Below, piece after piece: positions 29,329-34,727 of a stretch of DNA of 51,375 bases. Each line of letters begins with the position of its first letter. The stretch's first letter is position 1. The position numbers were made by a program, and so were the translations under genes. This DNA is from Gemmatimonadota bacterium (lineage in GTDB: Bacteria; Gemmatimonadota; Gemmatimonadetes; Gemmatimonadales; Gemmatimonadaceae), in contig JAJPIS010000064.1 of assembly GCA_021324635.1 (NCBI GenBank), positions 1 through 51,375 on the forward strand, in the 5' to 3' direction. The notes beneath the pieces are model-generated. The model searched no databases and was not told the DNA's origin. It saw only the letters and a list, made by a program, of their open reading frames with translations.

Positions 29329-30900
29329 TTACGGTGCCCCCTCGTAGACCCACGGGTTGGGCTGCTTCGATGCCCGCCCGGCGGCATCCGCCGCATCACG
29401 GGTCGGGAACGGGCCGAGCACGACCAGATACACGGTCGTTCCGGCGCGCGACGTCGTTGCCACGCGGGCGTGCAAGCCGGAGACGGTGATCCTGCTGGCG
29501 CGAGCGCGCGCCGAGTCCATGTTGAGGAGCGCGGCAAACTGAACCGTGAACCCCGGCGAGCGTACGGGCGCACTCGCCCCGAGGCGTCCCTGGGCGCTGT
29601 CGACCGCGGCAGGCTGCGGTGGCGGGGTGGCAGTCGTGGGCGCCCGCTGCGCGACCGTGCTCTCGCGCTGGCTCCGCCGGATGGCGGCGAGGATCGAGTC
29701 GCCGGAGTCGACCGGTGCGCTCGGGAACGTCACCGGCTGGTCGAGGCCCGGGGCCCGCGGGCGGAAGCCGTCCCACCGAATCGGAATCCAGAAATCGCGC
29801 GCGCCCCCCGCGATCGTGCGGCGAGGCGCAAGCGTCCGGGGATCGACGAACACGACATCCTGGCCCTGCGCGAGCACGATCGATCCGTCGACCCCGACGA
29901 ACGGCAGATCGGCCGTCCAGGTCGTGCGCAGATGGCCGGTCACGCGGTCGGTGCCGACCGCGACGACCCATACGGAATCCGCCGCGTGCGCCGGCCGGAC
30001 GAGCAGGAATCGCCCGAGCGGATCCATCCGCAGCTCGGCCGCAGAGCCAGGCAAGGCCACCGTGCCACTCTCGCGATCGGTGTAGCGGTCAATGATGGTG
30101 AGCGCGTGCGCGGAATCCAGGGCGACGTACAGCCGATCGCCGCTGGGCGTCGGGGCGAGGGCATGCAGCCGGCGCTCGAAGCGCATCACCGGACCCGCCT
30201 TGAGGTCGCGGGTGCGGACCGGCTGGAGCACCGAGTCGGAGGCGAAGTAGGCCCGGTCACCGACTGCCGCGCGCACGAGGCGCTCCACGCGCGGGAGCAC
30301 CGTCGTATCGAGCAGGGCCGTTCCTGGGGGGTGGACGCGCCAGAGCGTGGTGGCGTCCCCCGCGTCGCCCACGATGATCACGCTGCCGTCGGGCTGCGGT
30401 GCCACGTCACGCGCCGCCATGGGCGGCCGAAGGGTCCAGGGGTGCACGTCGGTCGGTGTGAGGCGCGTCACCGCGCCGACCGGGGAGACACCGTAGACGG
30501 CGGCGCCGTCGGCCGAGTGGAGGGCCGTCAGCTTGACGGCTGGCGGTGCCGTCGTCGTCCCCGTTCGAAGCTCGATCCGGCGCGGTGCGCCCCGCACGTC
30601 GACGACGGCGACCGCTCCGGCGTCCTCATCAAAGGCAAGGACACGGGCCACGCCCGGAGCGCGCTCGGATGACGTCCAGACCGCGGAATCCAGCCGCCCG
30701 TAGTCGAACGCGCGGGCCCTCCCGCCGCCGCGCGGAATGCGCAGGATGAGCGCCTCCGGTCCGCTGACGACCGTTGGGGTCGCCGGCGCCGGCATGGCGG
30801 ATCCCCTGGATGGAGCCTGGGCGGGGTGAGCCGGGTTTCGATCCGAGCCGCCGCACGCCACGACCGCCAGCAGCGTCGCCGCACTCAGGGATATCCGCAC
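29329..30900 (-). CDS. Propeller-like lipoprotein with C-terminal SPOR domain
   Basis: A 523-residue exported protein. The N-terminus LSAATLLAVVACGGS gives a lipobox with Cys16, so it is probably a lipoprotein. The middle 350 residues contain repeating beta-strand text such as DRLYVALDSAHALTIIDRYT, consistent with a beta-propeller, and the C-terminal 75 residues form a SPOR domain (FTVQFAALLNMDSARARAS, then VYLVVLGPFPTRDAADA). A septum- or wall-associated role is inferred. GTG start at 30900; the 71 bases before it hold no clear promoter. Confidence 0.78.
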   Translation of the reverse strand: MRISLSAATLLAVVACGGSDRNPAHPAQAPSRGSAMPAPATPTVVSGPEALILRIPRGGGRARAFDYGRLDSAVWTSSERAPGVARVLAFDEDAGAVAVVDVRGAPRRIELRTGTTTAPPAVKLTALHSADGAAVYGVSPVGAVTRLTPTDVHPWTLRPPMAARDVAPQPDGSVIIVGDAGDATTLWRVHPPGTALLDTTVLPRVERLVRAAVGDRAYFASDSVLQPVRTRDLKAGPVMRFERRLHALAPTPSGDRLYVALDSAHALTIIDRYTDRESGTVALPGSAAELRMDPLGRFLLVRPAHAADSVWVVAVGTDRVTGHLRTTWTADLPFVGVDGSIVLAQGQDVVFVDPRTLAPRRTIAGGARDFWIPIRWDGFRPRAPGLDQPVTFPSAPVDSGDSILAAIRRSQRESTVAQRAPTTATPPPQPAAVDSAQGRLGASAPVRSPGFTVQFAALLNMDSARARASRITVSGLHARVATTSRAGTTVYLVVLGPFPTRDAADAAGRASKQPNPWVYEGAP

Positions 30901-30971: not shown

Positions 30972-33900
30972 TCAGAAGTCGGGTCCCACCGACCAGCGCC
31001 AGTAGCCATGATGGCCGGCGTCGATCGGGATCGCGTAGTCCCAGCGCAGGATCGCCAGGTTGTACAGGTTCACCCGGATCCCGGCGCCGTAGCTCGTCAG
31101 CGGATAGCGCTGGCCCGCGAGGTTGTAGTTCGCGGGGCGTGACCCGTAGAGCGTCTGGTCCTTGCTCCACGCGACTCCAGCGTCGCCGAAGATCACACCG
31201 TCGAGCGGCGGCAGGGACAGGGGAAGGAAGCGGAGATCGGCGCGACGGAGCACCGGAAATCGCAGCTCGGCGTTGGCGACGAGGACGCGGCTGCCGAGCG
31301 TCTGGACGAGGCTGCACGCCGTCGACTCGGCGTGCGTGAGGTCGCATCCCGTGTAGTAGCCCTCGGCGCGGTCGTACCCGCGGAGCAGGTAGGGCGAGGC
31401 GATGTACGCGGGAAGATACAGCTCGTCGCGCCCCGTCTTGACGTCGGCGAAGAACCGGGTCGCGAGCGTCAGGTAGTCGAAGAGCACGGGCACGTAGCGG
31501 CGGACGTCGGCCACGTATTCGGTCCAGCGCTTCGAGCCCACCGCCGGCTGGACCTCGAACCGGAAGCGATGCCCGGCAATCGGCCCGGTCGTCCCGAACA
31601 GCGCGTTGTCGCCGACGAGCGCGACGAACGGTTGCGCGAACAGCTCATCGCCGATCCCACGGATGCTGTCGAGGGAGAAGGTCGACGCGCCGCCGTGCAC
31701 GACATCGATCGGCCGACTGATGAAGTAGATCGACCGGTCGAGATTGGTGAACCGGCTCCCGAGCTCCCAGCGAAGGAATCGGTCGAGCGGATAGATCCCC
31801 ACCGCGAACGCCTGCCGGATCACATCGCGGGTCAACTGGAGGGTTTCGCTTCCCACGCCGGCGGTCGATACCAGGTATCGATCCGACGAGTAGTAGTAGT
31901 ACGGGACCTGGTACAGACCGGTGCTGTACTGGAGGCGGTGGCCGAGGTTCGTGTAATCGGCGAACAGCTCGGCGTCGCTGAATCGTCCATTGAGCTGGCC
32001 CGCGACCGCGAGGTGCTGGTCTCCCACCAGATCACTGAGTACCACCGTCGTCCCGCCGTACACTCCGCTGTAGTAGTTGTTGGCACCGTAGCCGATCGAT
32101 GGCTGTGCGATGTAGTCGGCGTGGAATCCCGCGCGGTACGGATGGTCGGTGATGGCCGCCGAATCGGGCAGCGCGACGCTCGTGCTGTCCAGGAGGGCGG
32201 CCACAGTAGGCGGGGCGGCACTGCCGGTCACCGCCTCGTCCCCCAGCGAGTCCGATGAGCGGATCGCGCCGCTCGGTGACCGGTAGAACGAGCGGCCGCC
32301 GTCCGACGCGCCCGAGTCGGACCCGCGGTGCGCGAGTGTCCTCCAGCGGTCGGCTGTCCCCGCTGACGGCGAGCCGGTGCCGCTGCCGCCCGCCGATGGC
32401 AGCGGCGGCTGGATGCCGGCCGCCAGTGTCTCCTCTCCGGTCGCCGCCGCCCCCTCGACCGTCGCGATCAGATCGTGCATCGGCGTCCGGTGGAGGGCGC
32501 GCGGGTGGTCGACACCCCAGACCAGATATCGGTCGTTCTCGTAGTACGTGAACGCCAGCCGGTCGGCGGCGCGGGCCCAGGTGATCGCTGGGCTGTATTC
32601 CGTGAACGCCGAGACCGCGCCCACGACGTTGGTCAGTCGAGACTGCGACTGCGTGACGAGGTCGTACAGATACACATTGGCGGTGCCGGTCCGGTCCGAG
32701 ATGTAGGCGATCGCGTCGCCGTCCGGTGACCACATGGGATTGAGATTCAGTCCCTCCTGGTCGGGGAGCACCGTGATCTGCCCGGTGGCCAGGTCGTAGA
32801 GACAGATCCGCCACTTGGGGAGCCGCAGTGCCTGCAAGCTCGCGCCATCGCCCCGGTCGCTGGCGAACGCGATCGTCCGCCCGTCGGGCGACCATTGGGG
32901 CTGGAGGTCGCCATGCCGATCGTCGGTCAGGCGCCGCACGCGCCCGCTCGCGACCTCCACGGTGTACAGATCGGTGATGCCCCCCGTCATCCCCGAGAAG
33001 ACCAGGGTCCGTCCGTCGGGCGCGAACGCCGGGCTCGAGACGTCCACCGGGATCCGGAACCGCCTCACGACGCGATCGCGTCGGAGGTCGAACAGGTAGA
33101 GAACGTCGTGTCCGCCGGTCAGGGCCGTGAACGCGAGGTAGCGCCCGTCCGGTGAGAACGCGTTCTGCGAGTAGAGGAGGTTGAGCTCCGCGTAGTTGGG
33201 ATCGGTCGTGCTGCGCACCAGCCGCTCGATCCGCTTCCCGGTGCGCGCATCGCCGAGCCAGAGGTCGGGGAACACCTCGCCGCGCACGAAGCTGCCAGTC
33301 GCGATGAACGCGATGTACCGACCGTCGCTCGACAGGGCCGGGGCGATGAAGATCGACCCGCCGGTCCGGCGGGGCGTGAGGATCGGCCGGGCGAAGGTCC
33401 GCGCGCGCTCCAGGTCCGGCACGGCGGGGAGATAGCGGGCCTCGGTCGCTCGACGCCAGTCGTCGCTCAGGTCGGCGAGCGACATGCCGAGCACGGTGTG
33501 GAACGCCCGCTCGACTCCGACGGCGGGCACTTCGGCCATGATCTCGCCAATCGCCTCATCGCCCCAGCGCTCGCCGACGTAGGCCCACAGCGCCTCACCG
33601 TACCGGTAGGGGAAAAAGCGTCCGGGATCGCGCGTCATCTGCTCGATGGTCGGCATATGCCCATTGAGCACTGCATCGCGCATCACCGACGCCGTCAGCG
33701 CGTGCCGCGGACCGAGCGACAGGTATTCGGCCATCCCCTCCATGAACCAGAGGGGCGGGTCGACCTGGGCCAGGACCTGAAGGCCGCCGCCCGCACGTCC
33801 CCGGCCGAAGATGTCGTACTGGAACTCGTGCGTCATCTCGTGCGCGAGCACGTGCTCGAAGGACCGGTAGTCGCCGGTCAGCGGGAGGATGATCCGGTCA

Positions 33901-34268
33901 CGCTCGGCCTCGGTCACCCCGCCCACGCCCTCACCGAGATCCCCGGTGACGTTGTTCTGCCCGAAGTCGGCGCGCGAGGCGAAGAGGAGGATCGGCTTCT
34001 TCTCGCGGAATTGGTGATCCAGCAGCCGCGAGAGCCGTCCGTAGTCGCGCTCGGCCATTCGTGCCGCGTCCCACGCCGCGGCCCGCTCGGCCGGATAGTA
34101 GTGGAGGCGAAAGTGCTCGGTCTCGAGCACGCGCCACTGAAAGTGCCGGTACTCGACCTGGTTCTGCCCGAAGTAGTCCTGGGCCAGGAGCCGGTCTGGA
34201 GCGAGCAGGCCGGTCCATGCCGCAGCGCAGACGAGACTGGTCCCGATCGCCGCCCGCCCGAACCCCAT
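30972..34268 (-). CDS. Metallopeptidase-like, TolB-type propeller and outer-membrane barrel fusion
   Basis: A 1098-residue exported protein with three parts. After a signal peptide ending LLAQ (about residue 30), an M1/M61-like gluzincin-type domain holds HEMTH (His143, Glu144, His147) and WFMEGMAEY with Glu177 or Glu181 as third ligand. Residues about 320-600 carry repeated SPDGRYLAF, SPDGRTIAF and SPDGDAIAYISD motifs of a WD40/TolB-like propeller. From about 730 on, aromatic-rich alternating strands to a C-terminal Phe (SVGPDF) match a bacterial surface antigen (Omp85-type) barrel. The start is ATG 34268 with GGGAGG upstream. Probably an outer-membrane protein; substrate unknown. Confidence 0.82.
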   Translation of the reverse strand: MGFGRAAIGTSLVCAAAWTGLLAPDRLLAQDYFGQNQVEYRHFQWRVLETEHFRLHYYPAERAAAWDAARMAERDYGRLSRLLDHQFREKKPILLFASRADFGQNNVTGDLGEGVGGVTEAERDRIILPLTGDYRSFEHVLAHEMTHEFQYDIFGRGRAGGGLQVLAQVDPPLWFMEGMAEYLSLGPRHALTASVMRDAVLNGHMPTIEQMTRDPGRFFPYRYGEALWAYVGERWGDEAIGEIMAEVPAVGVERAFHTVLGMSLADLSDDWRRATEARYLPAVPDLERARTFARPILTPRRTGGSIFIAPALSSDGRYIAFIATGSFVRGEVFPDLWLGDARTGKRIERLVRSTTDPNYAELNLLYSQNAFSPDGRYLAFTALTGGHDVLYLFDLRRDRVVRRFRIPVDVSSPAFAPDGRTLVFSGMTGGITDLYTVEVASGRVRRLTDDRHGDLQPQWSPDGRTIAFASDRGDGASLQALRLPKWRICLYDLATGQITVLPDQEGLNLNPMWSPDGDAIAYISDRTGTANVYLYDLVTQSQSRLTNVVGAVSAFTEYSPAITWARAADRLAFTYYENDRYLVWGVDHPRALHRTPMHDLIATVEGAAATGEETLAAGIQPPLPSAGGSGTGSPSAGTADRWRTLAHRGSDSGASDGGRSFYRSPSGAIRSSDSLGDEAVTGSAAPPTVAALLDSTSVALPDSAAITDHPYRAGFHADYIAQPSIGYGANNYYSGVYGGTTVVLSDLVGDQHLAVAGQLNGRFSDAELFADYTNLGHRLQYSTGLYQVPYYYYSSDRYLVSTAGVGSETLQLTRDVIRQAFAVGIYPLDRFLRWELGSRFTNLDRSIYFISRPIDVVHGGASTFSLDSIRGIGDELFAQPFVALVGDNALFGTTGPIAGHRFRFEVQPAVGSKRWTEYVADVRRYVPVLFDYLTLATRFFADVKTGRDELYLPAYIASPYLLRGYDRAEGYYTGCDLTHAESTACSLVQTLGSRVLVANAELRFPVLRRADLRFLPLSLPPLDGVIFGDAGVAWSKDQTLYGSRPANYNLAGQRYPLTSYGAGIRVNLYNLAILRWDYAIPIDAGHHGYWRWSVGPDF

Positions 34269-34349
34269 ACCCTGCCTCCCCGACCAGCGTCTCGGCCCCG
34301 GCCGAGCGGCACCCACGCGTCGGCCACCACCGGCCAGCGGCCCCGATCG

Positions 34350-34727
34350 CTACCCGACCGCGGCGGCCCCCACGGGAGTGACCTCGGCGTCACCCCACAG
34401 GCGCTCGAGCTGGTAGAACGAGCGCAGGGCGGGATGAAAGATGTGAACGACGAAATCGACGTAGTCGAGCAGCACCCACCGACCCTGGGCCAGTCCCTCG
34501 ATGTGGTACACGCTCATGCCTTCCTTCTTGAGCTCCGTCGTGACGTGCTCCGCCACACTCCGCACATGGGTGTCGGACGTGCCGCTCGCGATGACGAAGT
34601 AATCGGTCATATCGGTGAGCGGCTTCAGGTTGAGCATCAGCACGTCGTTCGCCTTACGGTCCACACACAGCGCCGCGGCGCGCTGGACGGCAGCGGCCAC
34701 ATCGAGTGTCGGGGCGGGTCGGGGCAT
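34350..34727 (-). CDS. rsfS: Ribosomal silencing factor RsfS
   Basis: A 125-residue member of the RsfS/Iojap family, which binds ribosomal protein uL14 and blocks subunit joining when nutrients are short. The core text is typical: ANDVLMLNLKPLTDMTDYFVIASG, YHIEGLAQGRWVLLDYVDFVVHIF and a tail with FYQLERLWGDAE. Start ATG 34727. It sits between the barrel protein and rplI in the same direction. Confidence 0.95.
   Translation of the reverse strand: MPRPAPTLDVAAAVQRAAALCVDRKANDVLMLNLKPLTDMTDYFVIASGTSDTHVRSVAEHVTTELKKEGMSVYHIEGLAQGRWVLLDYVDFVVHIFHPALRSFYQLERLWGDAEVTPVGAAAVG

Follow-up and report, generated by a model that had tools for sequence, protein, structure and literature searches.

A POTRA-less Omp85 barrel protein of Gemmatimonadota with a TolB-like propeller and a probable N-terminal zinc metallopeptidase

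The locus and the layout of the chain

The window analysed here is the whole of a 51,375-nucleotide stretch of DNA from a Gemmatimonadota bacterium (contig JAJPIS010000064.1 of assembly [GenBank:GCA_021324635.1]). Its minus strand carries a single, uninterrupted open frame (30972-34316), in which an ATG at 34268 gives a protein of 1098 residues. The N-terminus is hydrophobic and, judged by eye, resembles a signal peptide, so that the protein looks like an exported one. The features of this gene and its two conserved neighbours are as follows.

30972 to 34268, minus strand: whole gene, an open frame of 1098 codons plus stop.
34179 to 34268, minus strand: probable Sec signal peptide, residues 1-30, with a basic start and a hydrophobic core (by eye).
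33384 to 34172, minus strand: gluzincin-type metallopeptidase domain, residues about 33-295 (conservation, profile searches and model).
33828 to 33842, minus strand: HEMTH zinc-binding and catalytic motif, residues 143-147.
33723 to 33749, minus strand: WFMEGMAEY, residues 174-182, with E177 as the proposed third zinc ligand and A180 and E181 as proposed second-shell residues (conservation and alignment to collagenases; roles as in the active-site description of PMC3711286).
32484 to 33368, minus strand: TolB-like beta-propeller, residues about 301-595 (PD40 matches and structural similarity to TolB).
32154 to 32483, minus strand: linker, residues 596-705, variable in length and mostly of low model confidence (model and alignment).
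30975 to 32153, minus strand: Omp85 beta-barrel, residues 706-1098, with 16 strands and an aromatic last residue (PF01103, model and match to BamA).
31374 to 31382, minus strand: RGY, residues 963-965, which we take to be the Omp85 loop-6 motif (R in 73, G in 76 and Y in 69 of 76 alignment rows).
31314 to 31346, minus strand: C975 and C985, a cysteine pair of loop 6 and a possible disulfide in an extracellular loop (each in 70 of 76 rows, the other 6 being gapped).
34350 to 34727, minus strand: RsfS gene, just upstream, a conserved neighbour (PF02410, 110 bits).
29329 to 30900, minus strand: putative lipoprotein gene, downstream, a conserved neighbour whose product has a SPOR domain and matches propeller repeats weakly.

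The last of these genes has, by eye, a lipobox-like start, and its SPOR domain is C-terminal.

From the letters alone, the chain had been read as one polypeptide with a HEMTH protease, a TolB/WD40-like propeller and an Omp85-like barrel, and conservation, profile searches and a structure model support all three identities. Homologues were collected by scanning named genomes with strict peptide patterns, which gave 163 stretches and 133 relatives, the best 80 of which were kept. These best 80 of 133 come from Gemmatimonadota, from Candidatus Latescibacterota, and from records named only uncultured bacterium or bacterium HR33. The alignment has 76 rows, namely the window protein and 75 of the 80 homologues; the remaining five (L057, L064, L097, L098 and L116) are cut by contig ends and were left out. 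In each of the other 75 rows, too, a single frame encodes all three parts. Compared with the window protein, the rows average 59% identity in the peptidase, 49% in the propeller, 39% in the barrel and 22% in the linker, the peptidase being the best conserved part of the chain.

Active site, propeller and barrel

In the peptidase domain, H143, E144, H147, Q150, E177, G178, A180, E181 and Y182 do not vary across the 76 rows, and the spacing from H147 to E177 is 30 residues in 60 rows, 29 in 9, 31 in 4 and 28 in 3. According to the active-site description in PMC3711286, the HEXXH motif of collagenases G, H and T is followed at a distance of 28-30 residues by the third-ligand glutamate; one helical turn past the HEXXH and this glutamate stand a Gln and a Glu, respectively, and an Ala lies three residues past the third ligand. 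This second-shell plan is matched at every point in the window protein, by Q150, A180 and E181, in all rows. In the predicted model the HExxH lies within helix 134-154 and E177 within helix 173-185, with a short helix (163-169) between them. Model and alignment both show an HExxH with a glutamate on a downstream helix, the pattern by which gluzincins are recognised. The proposed third zinc ligand, whose absence from a model was to count against the first reading, is invariant and stands at the collagenase position.

A PDB profile search with the peptidase domain returned microbial collagenases first (E 1.9e-4) and M1 aminopeptidases weakly next. Pfam Peptidase_M9 matches 23 of the 24 rows of the peptidase alignment (A2) at E 0.1 or less, the best at E 2.5e-7. 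For the window protein itself, Peptidase_M9 gives about 19 bits (18.7-19.2), under its curated cut-off of 26, and BSP gives 20.3 bits on residues 1-302, under its own; no named peptidase family matches the window protein above its curated cut-off, and the peptidase matches of the whole-chain Pfam scan at the N-terminus are weak. The window protein therefore shares the active-site pattern and spacing of the microbial collagenases (M9) but differs from them in its score under the Pfam cut-off, with only the catalytic part aligning. Because the active site is invariant, proteolysis by this protein is strongly suggested.

In the middle of the chain, Pfam PD40 matches five stretches (whole chain, E 2.8e-27); the NCBIfam TolB equivalog, at 133.9, does not reach its cut-off of 343.15. 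AlphaFold2 on the 76-row alignment gave a model with pLDDT 84.2 (against 33 for a structure prediction from the single sequence) and pTM 0.83, in which only residues 1-30, most of 600-683 and 969-986 fall below pLDDT 50. With VIA-align, the propeller matches TolB at Z up to 27.0 (245 residues, 2.4 A), and the barrel (model residues 716-1098) matches Deinococcus radiodurans BamA (8xnb) at Z 24.1 (314 residues, 4.1 A). The propeller thus shares the TolB fold but differs from TolB in being fused to a peptidase and a barrel. The Foldseek matches listed are propellers, S9 propeller peptidases and Omp85 barrels only, and are uninformative on the peptidase fold. The linker, taken from alignment position 590 to 702, is 63-163 residues long, and its few conserved residues are R670 and L700-P701-D702.

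By our own count on the model, 16 barrel strands lie between residues 733 and 1094 (865-887 being split in two), and the RGY loop connects strands 11 and 12. All 76 rows end in F or Y. The whole-chain Pfam scan missed the Omp85 barrel, and the view that the barrel was only wishful was considered on this ground; it was dropped, as residues 691-1098 alone match PF01103 (Omp85) at 35.0 bits against a cut-off of 24 (35.5 bits in a genome-wide search). PF01103 also matches 11 of the 18 barrels of the barrel alignment (A3) at E 0.1 or less, and sequence matches of the barrel profile include Fusobacterium BamA (9ccg, E 3.8e-6) and another BamA (4n75, E 0.0021). Whole-chain model and Omp85 profile agree, therefore, on the C-terminal barrel that had been expected, and a non-barrel outcome did not occur. 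The barrel domain, the 16 strands with an aromatic C-terminus and the loop-6 motif, by which Omp85 proteins are recognised, are all present. The loop-6 RGF/Y motif is a feature of Omp85 proteins and is linked to insertase or translocase function. No POTRA was matched in the chain (Pfam, whole and by domain) or at the gene in the genome scan.

A propeller N-terminal to an Omp85 barrel is the mark of WD40-Omp85, one of ten Omp85 subfamilies, which has been likened to a BamA-BamB fusion (Heinz and Lithgow 2014, PMC4104836). As the subfamily is described there, its TolB-like propeller precedes a POTRA-less barrel, just as in the window protein. The superfamily definition in the same text is based on the barrel domain and accepts POTRA-less subfamilies. 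By the wording of the PlpD abstract (PMC11116518), an Omp85 protein has at least one POTRA, and the window protein, with none, falls outside that wording; the PlpD paper also mentions WD40-like Omp85 proteins as uncharacterised. The main text of PMC4104836, which describes WD40-Omp85, contains 0 occurrences of the word 'peptidase'. No other open-licence paper was found to use the hyphenated term WD40-Omp85, and in the main texts of the open-licence literature no other paper was found on a peptidase or metalloprotease fused to Omp85. The WD40-Omp85 kind is known, and the fused conserved peptidase was not found in print in the open-licence literature. PMC4104836 does list a 'Metallo' subfamily, described as metalloprotease plus Omp85, but the domain given is PF00149. 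That family is absent among the Pfam families matched by the domains of the window protein. We take PF00149 to be the calcineurin-like phosphoesterase family, and the name 'Metallo' may therefore be mistaken.

In the source genome, seven Omp85 matches exceed the cut-off, including the window gene and its paralogue. Three other Omp85 genes have POTRA matches. The gene at C114 has five of these and is, in our reading, BamA; the window protein differs from it in having no POTRA array. The identity of the window protein with the organism's BamA was considered and ruled out, since three Omp85 proteins with POTRAs are encoded elsewhere in the genome and the fusion comes in addition to them.

Occurrence, paralogues and gene order

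The distribution survey covered Gemmatimonadota, Latescibacterota and a plasmid collection. A match at E 1e-20 or better was found in all 60 relatives searched. Of 200 genomes sampled from the phylum, 198 have a match to the peptidase part, orthologues and paralogues being pooled (189 of 191 good genomes; 93 of 93 genera), as do 16 of 16 Latescibacterota genomes. In one relative (L033, in the one-contig genome G023) the protein is spread over two frames, residues 21-917 and 889-1096, through a frameshift or a sequencing error.

The source genome holds one full-length paralogue (at C42). Among the matches listed, there are two further forms in Gemmatimonadota besides the RsfS-linked one, 36-45% and 31-35% identical. 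The same domain plan was found in 13 of 15 fetched paralogue stretches; the other two (L137 and L148) were not counted, as the longest-frame rule picked the wrong open frame. All 13 assessed paralogues have HExxH and EG(M/L)AE, 12 have the second-shell Gln (Glu in L144), and 11 have the RGY/F pattern (the exceptions are L136 and L141).

The plasmid collection gave one full relative: a plasmid of Salinibacter ruber (Rhodothermota) encodes a protein of 633 residues, 37% identical over 566 columns (L149, 5935-7836) and annotated as 'basic secretory protein-like protein'. It consists of peptidase and propeller, stops before the barrel, and has His at the second-shell Gln position. No barrel match was found on the plasmid. 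A split operon with a separate barrel gene was considered and rejected, the next gene matching Peptidase_S10 and showing no barrel similarity. In a quick tree of 44 hand-picked rows (the window protein, 29 of the 80 homologues, the 13 paralogues and the Salinibacter protein), the third form comes out as a single clade (SH-aLRT 100). The second form groups only weakly (59), and the Salinibacter relative joins four of its members (SH-aLRT 100). Its nesting among full-length proteins suggests barrel loss.

RsfS lies upstream in 67 of the 72 loci with 600 bases of upstream sequence, and the SPOR gene lies downstream in 51 of the 62 with 1500 bases downstream. SMC is conserved in order in 48 of 52 loci, and the order of the SPOR gene with SMC is kept in most Gemmatimonadota loci. 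The loci without these neighbours include all the Latescibacterota loci with room for them. In G001 and G002 (same genus) and G015 (same family), RsfS is directly followed by the SPOR gene (loci L154, L155 and L156). Since the fusion gene is absent between the two, it is not indispensable there. All three genomes keep a paralogue, their best matches being second-form paralogues by score. The neighbours were considered as functional partners and set aside: the SPOR gene stays without the fusion and Latescibacterota are without the neighbourhood, so the linkage is probably only shared gene order.

A possible role in the cell envelope

In our best reading, the window protein would be a zinc protease that is anchored in the outer membrane, faces the periplasm and serves the quality control or processing of envelope proteins. 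Because of the barrel, anchoring in the outer membrane is strongly suggested. The even strand number and the order enzyme-propeller-barrel would leave the N-terminal part periplasmic, unless it is threaded outward, and Omp85 topology together with the precedent of PlpD likewise suggests a periplasmic protease and propeller. According to the account in PMC11116518, PlpD is a patatin-Omp85 that shares an enzyme domain N-terminal to the barrel, but its enzyme is a lipase and not a peptidase, a POTRA is present and a propeller is absent. Its enzyme domain proved to be periplasmic, and the earlier idea of surface export was overturned experimentally (PMC11116518).

Like TolB and BamB, the propeller would bind a partner or client, which it would present to the peptidase. 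The peptidase, in turn, may cut or clear proteins of the envelope; the most plausible targets are outer-membrane proteins that are mis-assembled, or precursors, in the vicinity of the barrel. Overall, a quality-control protease of the BepA type would here be joined to an Omp85 scaffold, as a specialised paralogue that exists alongside BamA. BepA works with BAM on LptD, as described in PMC8423444. The set of BepA, BamA and BamB, which acts on outer-membrane proteins, resembles the window protein in its kinds of parts: an Omp85 barrel, a propeller and a zinc peptidase (as portrayed in PMC8423444 and PMC4104836). It differs in that these are separate proteins and that BepA belongs to M48, whereas the window site is collagenase-like.

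Several observations count for this explanation: the invariant site with its collagenase-like second shell, the collagenases as best PDB profile hits, the best-conserved peptidase, the PF01103 match together with the fold, the three Omp85 proteins with POTRAs elsewhere in the genome, and the peptidase match in 198 of 200 genomes. By analogy, the periplasmic enzyme of PlpD and the action of BepA at BAM on LptD count for it as well. Other observations count against it. First, the barrel-less Salinibacter relative means that the enzyme part can exist without the anchor. Second, a linker of such variable length is ill-suited to a rigid hand-over machine. Third, the peptidase family scores lie below their cut-offs. 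Fourth, G001, G002 and G015 are without the gene at its site, although they keep a paralogue. The reading of the window protein, a WD40-Omp85 protein that has no POTRA and carries an apparently active zinc metallopeptidase at its N-terminus, as serving client quality control in the envelope is proposed tentatively, with somewhat less than even confidence. The quality-control role and the binding of clients by the propeller are inference, as would be any insertase or transport activity. The sequence-only reading went further, to substrate capture, cleavage and transport by one protein; this would be conceivable, but the gene is absent at its site in three relatives and the Salinibacter relative is barrel-less.

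Some of the same evidence fits other explanations. The barrel may be only an anchor that neither inserts nor moves proteins, leaving a tethered periplasmic protease or processing enzyme. The use of an Omp85 scaffold for a lipase, as the PlpD account has it, is a precedent for this, and both the lower conservation of the barrel compared with peptidase and propeller and the nesting of a barrel-less relative among full-length ones are consistent with it. However, the loop-6 RGY, with its link to insertase or translocase function, has been kept across the alignment, and on balance we consider an anchor-only barrel somewhat unlikely. Export of peptidase and propeller through the barrel, to process extracellular protein at the cell surface, as was once proposed for PlpD, is quite improbable. 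A collagenase-like active site and a long flexible linker would fit a secreted scavenging enzyme, but two large folded domains precede strand 1 in the model, and the equivalent idea for PlpD was overturned by experiment (PMC11116518). The conserved RsfS and SPOR neighbours could indicate a dedicated client, perhaps the SPOR lipoprotein or some other protein of the envelope, that is matured by the peptidase and assembled or exported by the barrel; with the SPOR gene remaining where the fusion gene is lost, and Latescibacterota being without the neighbourhood, we regard this as very improbable. That the domains are degenerate or came together by chance, with no function, is scarcely credible in view of the invariant site and the architecture shared by 76 of 76 rows; the low peptidase family scores are the sole point in its favour.

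Taken as an envelope quality-control protease on an Omp85 scaffold, the fusion may be a one-chain cousin of machinery built elsewhere from separate parts. It is unlikely, in our estimate, to be a full single-chain assembly and quality-control machine, in which a barrel-bound client is either helped into the membrane or cut; if that were true, BamA, BamB and BepA, separate in Proteobacteria, would be fused in one phylum-wide protein. Omp85 proteins in which an enzyme or a propeller replaces the POTRAs are known and have hardly been studied, and the patatin type, PlpD, overturned expectations upon testing, by the account in PMC11116518. Here, a type with an apparently active protease occurs in nearly all of a phylum, in many cases with several copies, and close relatives show natural losses at the same site. 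Such a near-phylum-wide type with natural losses would make possible a clean test of one chain versus separate BamA, BamB and BepA.
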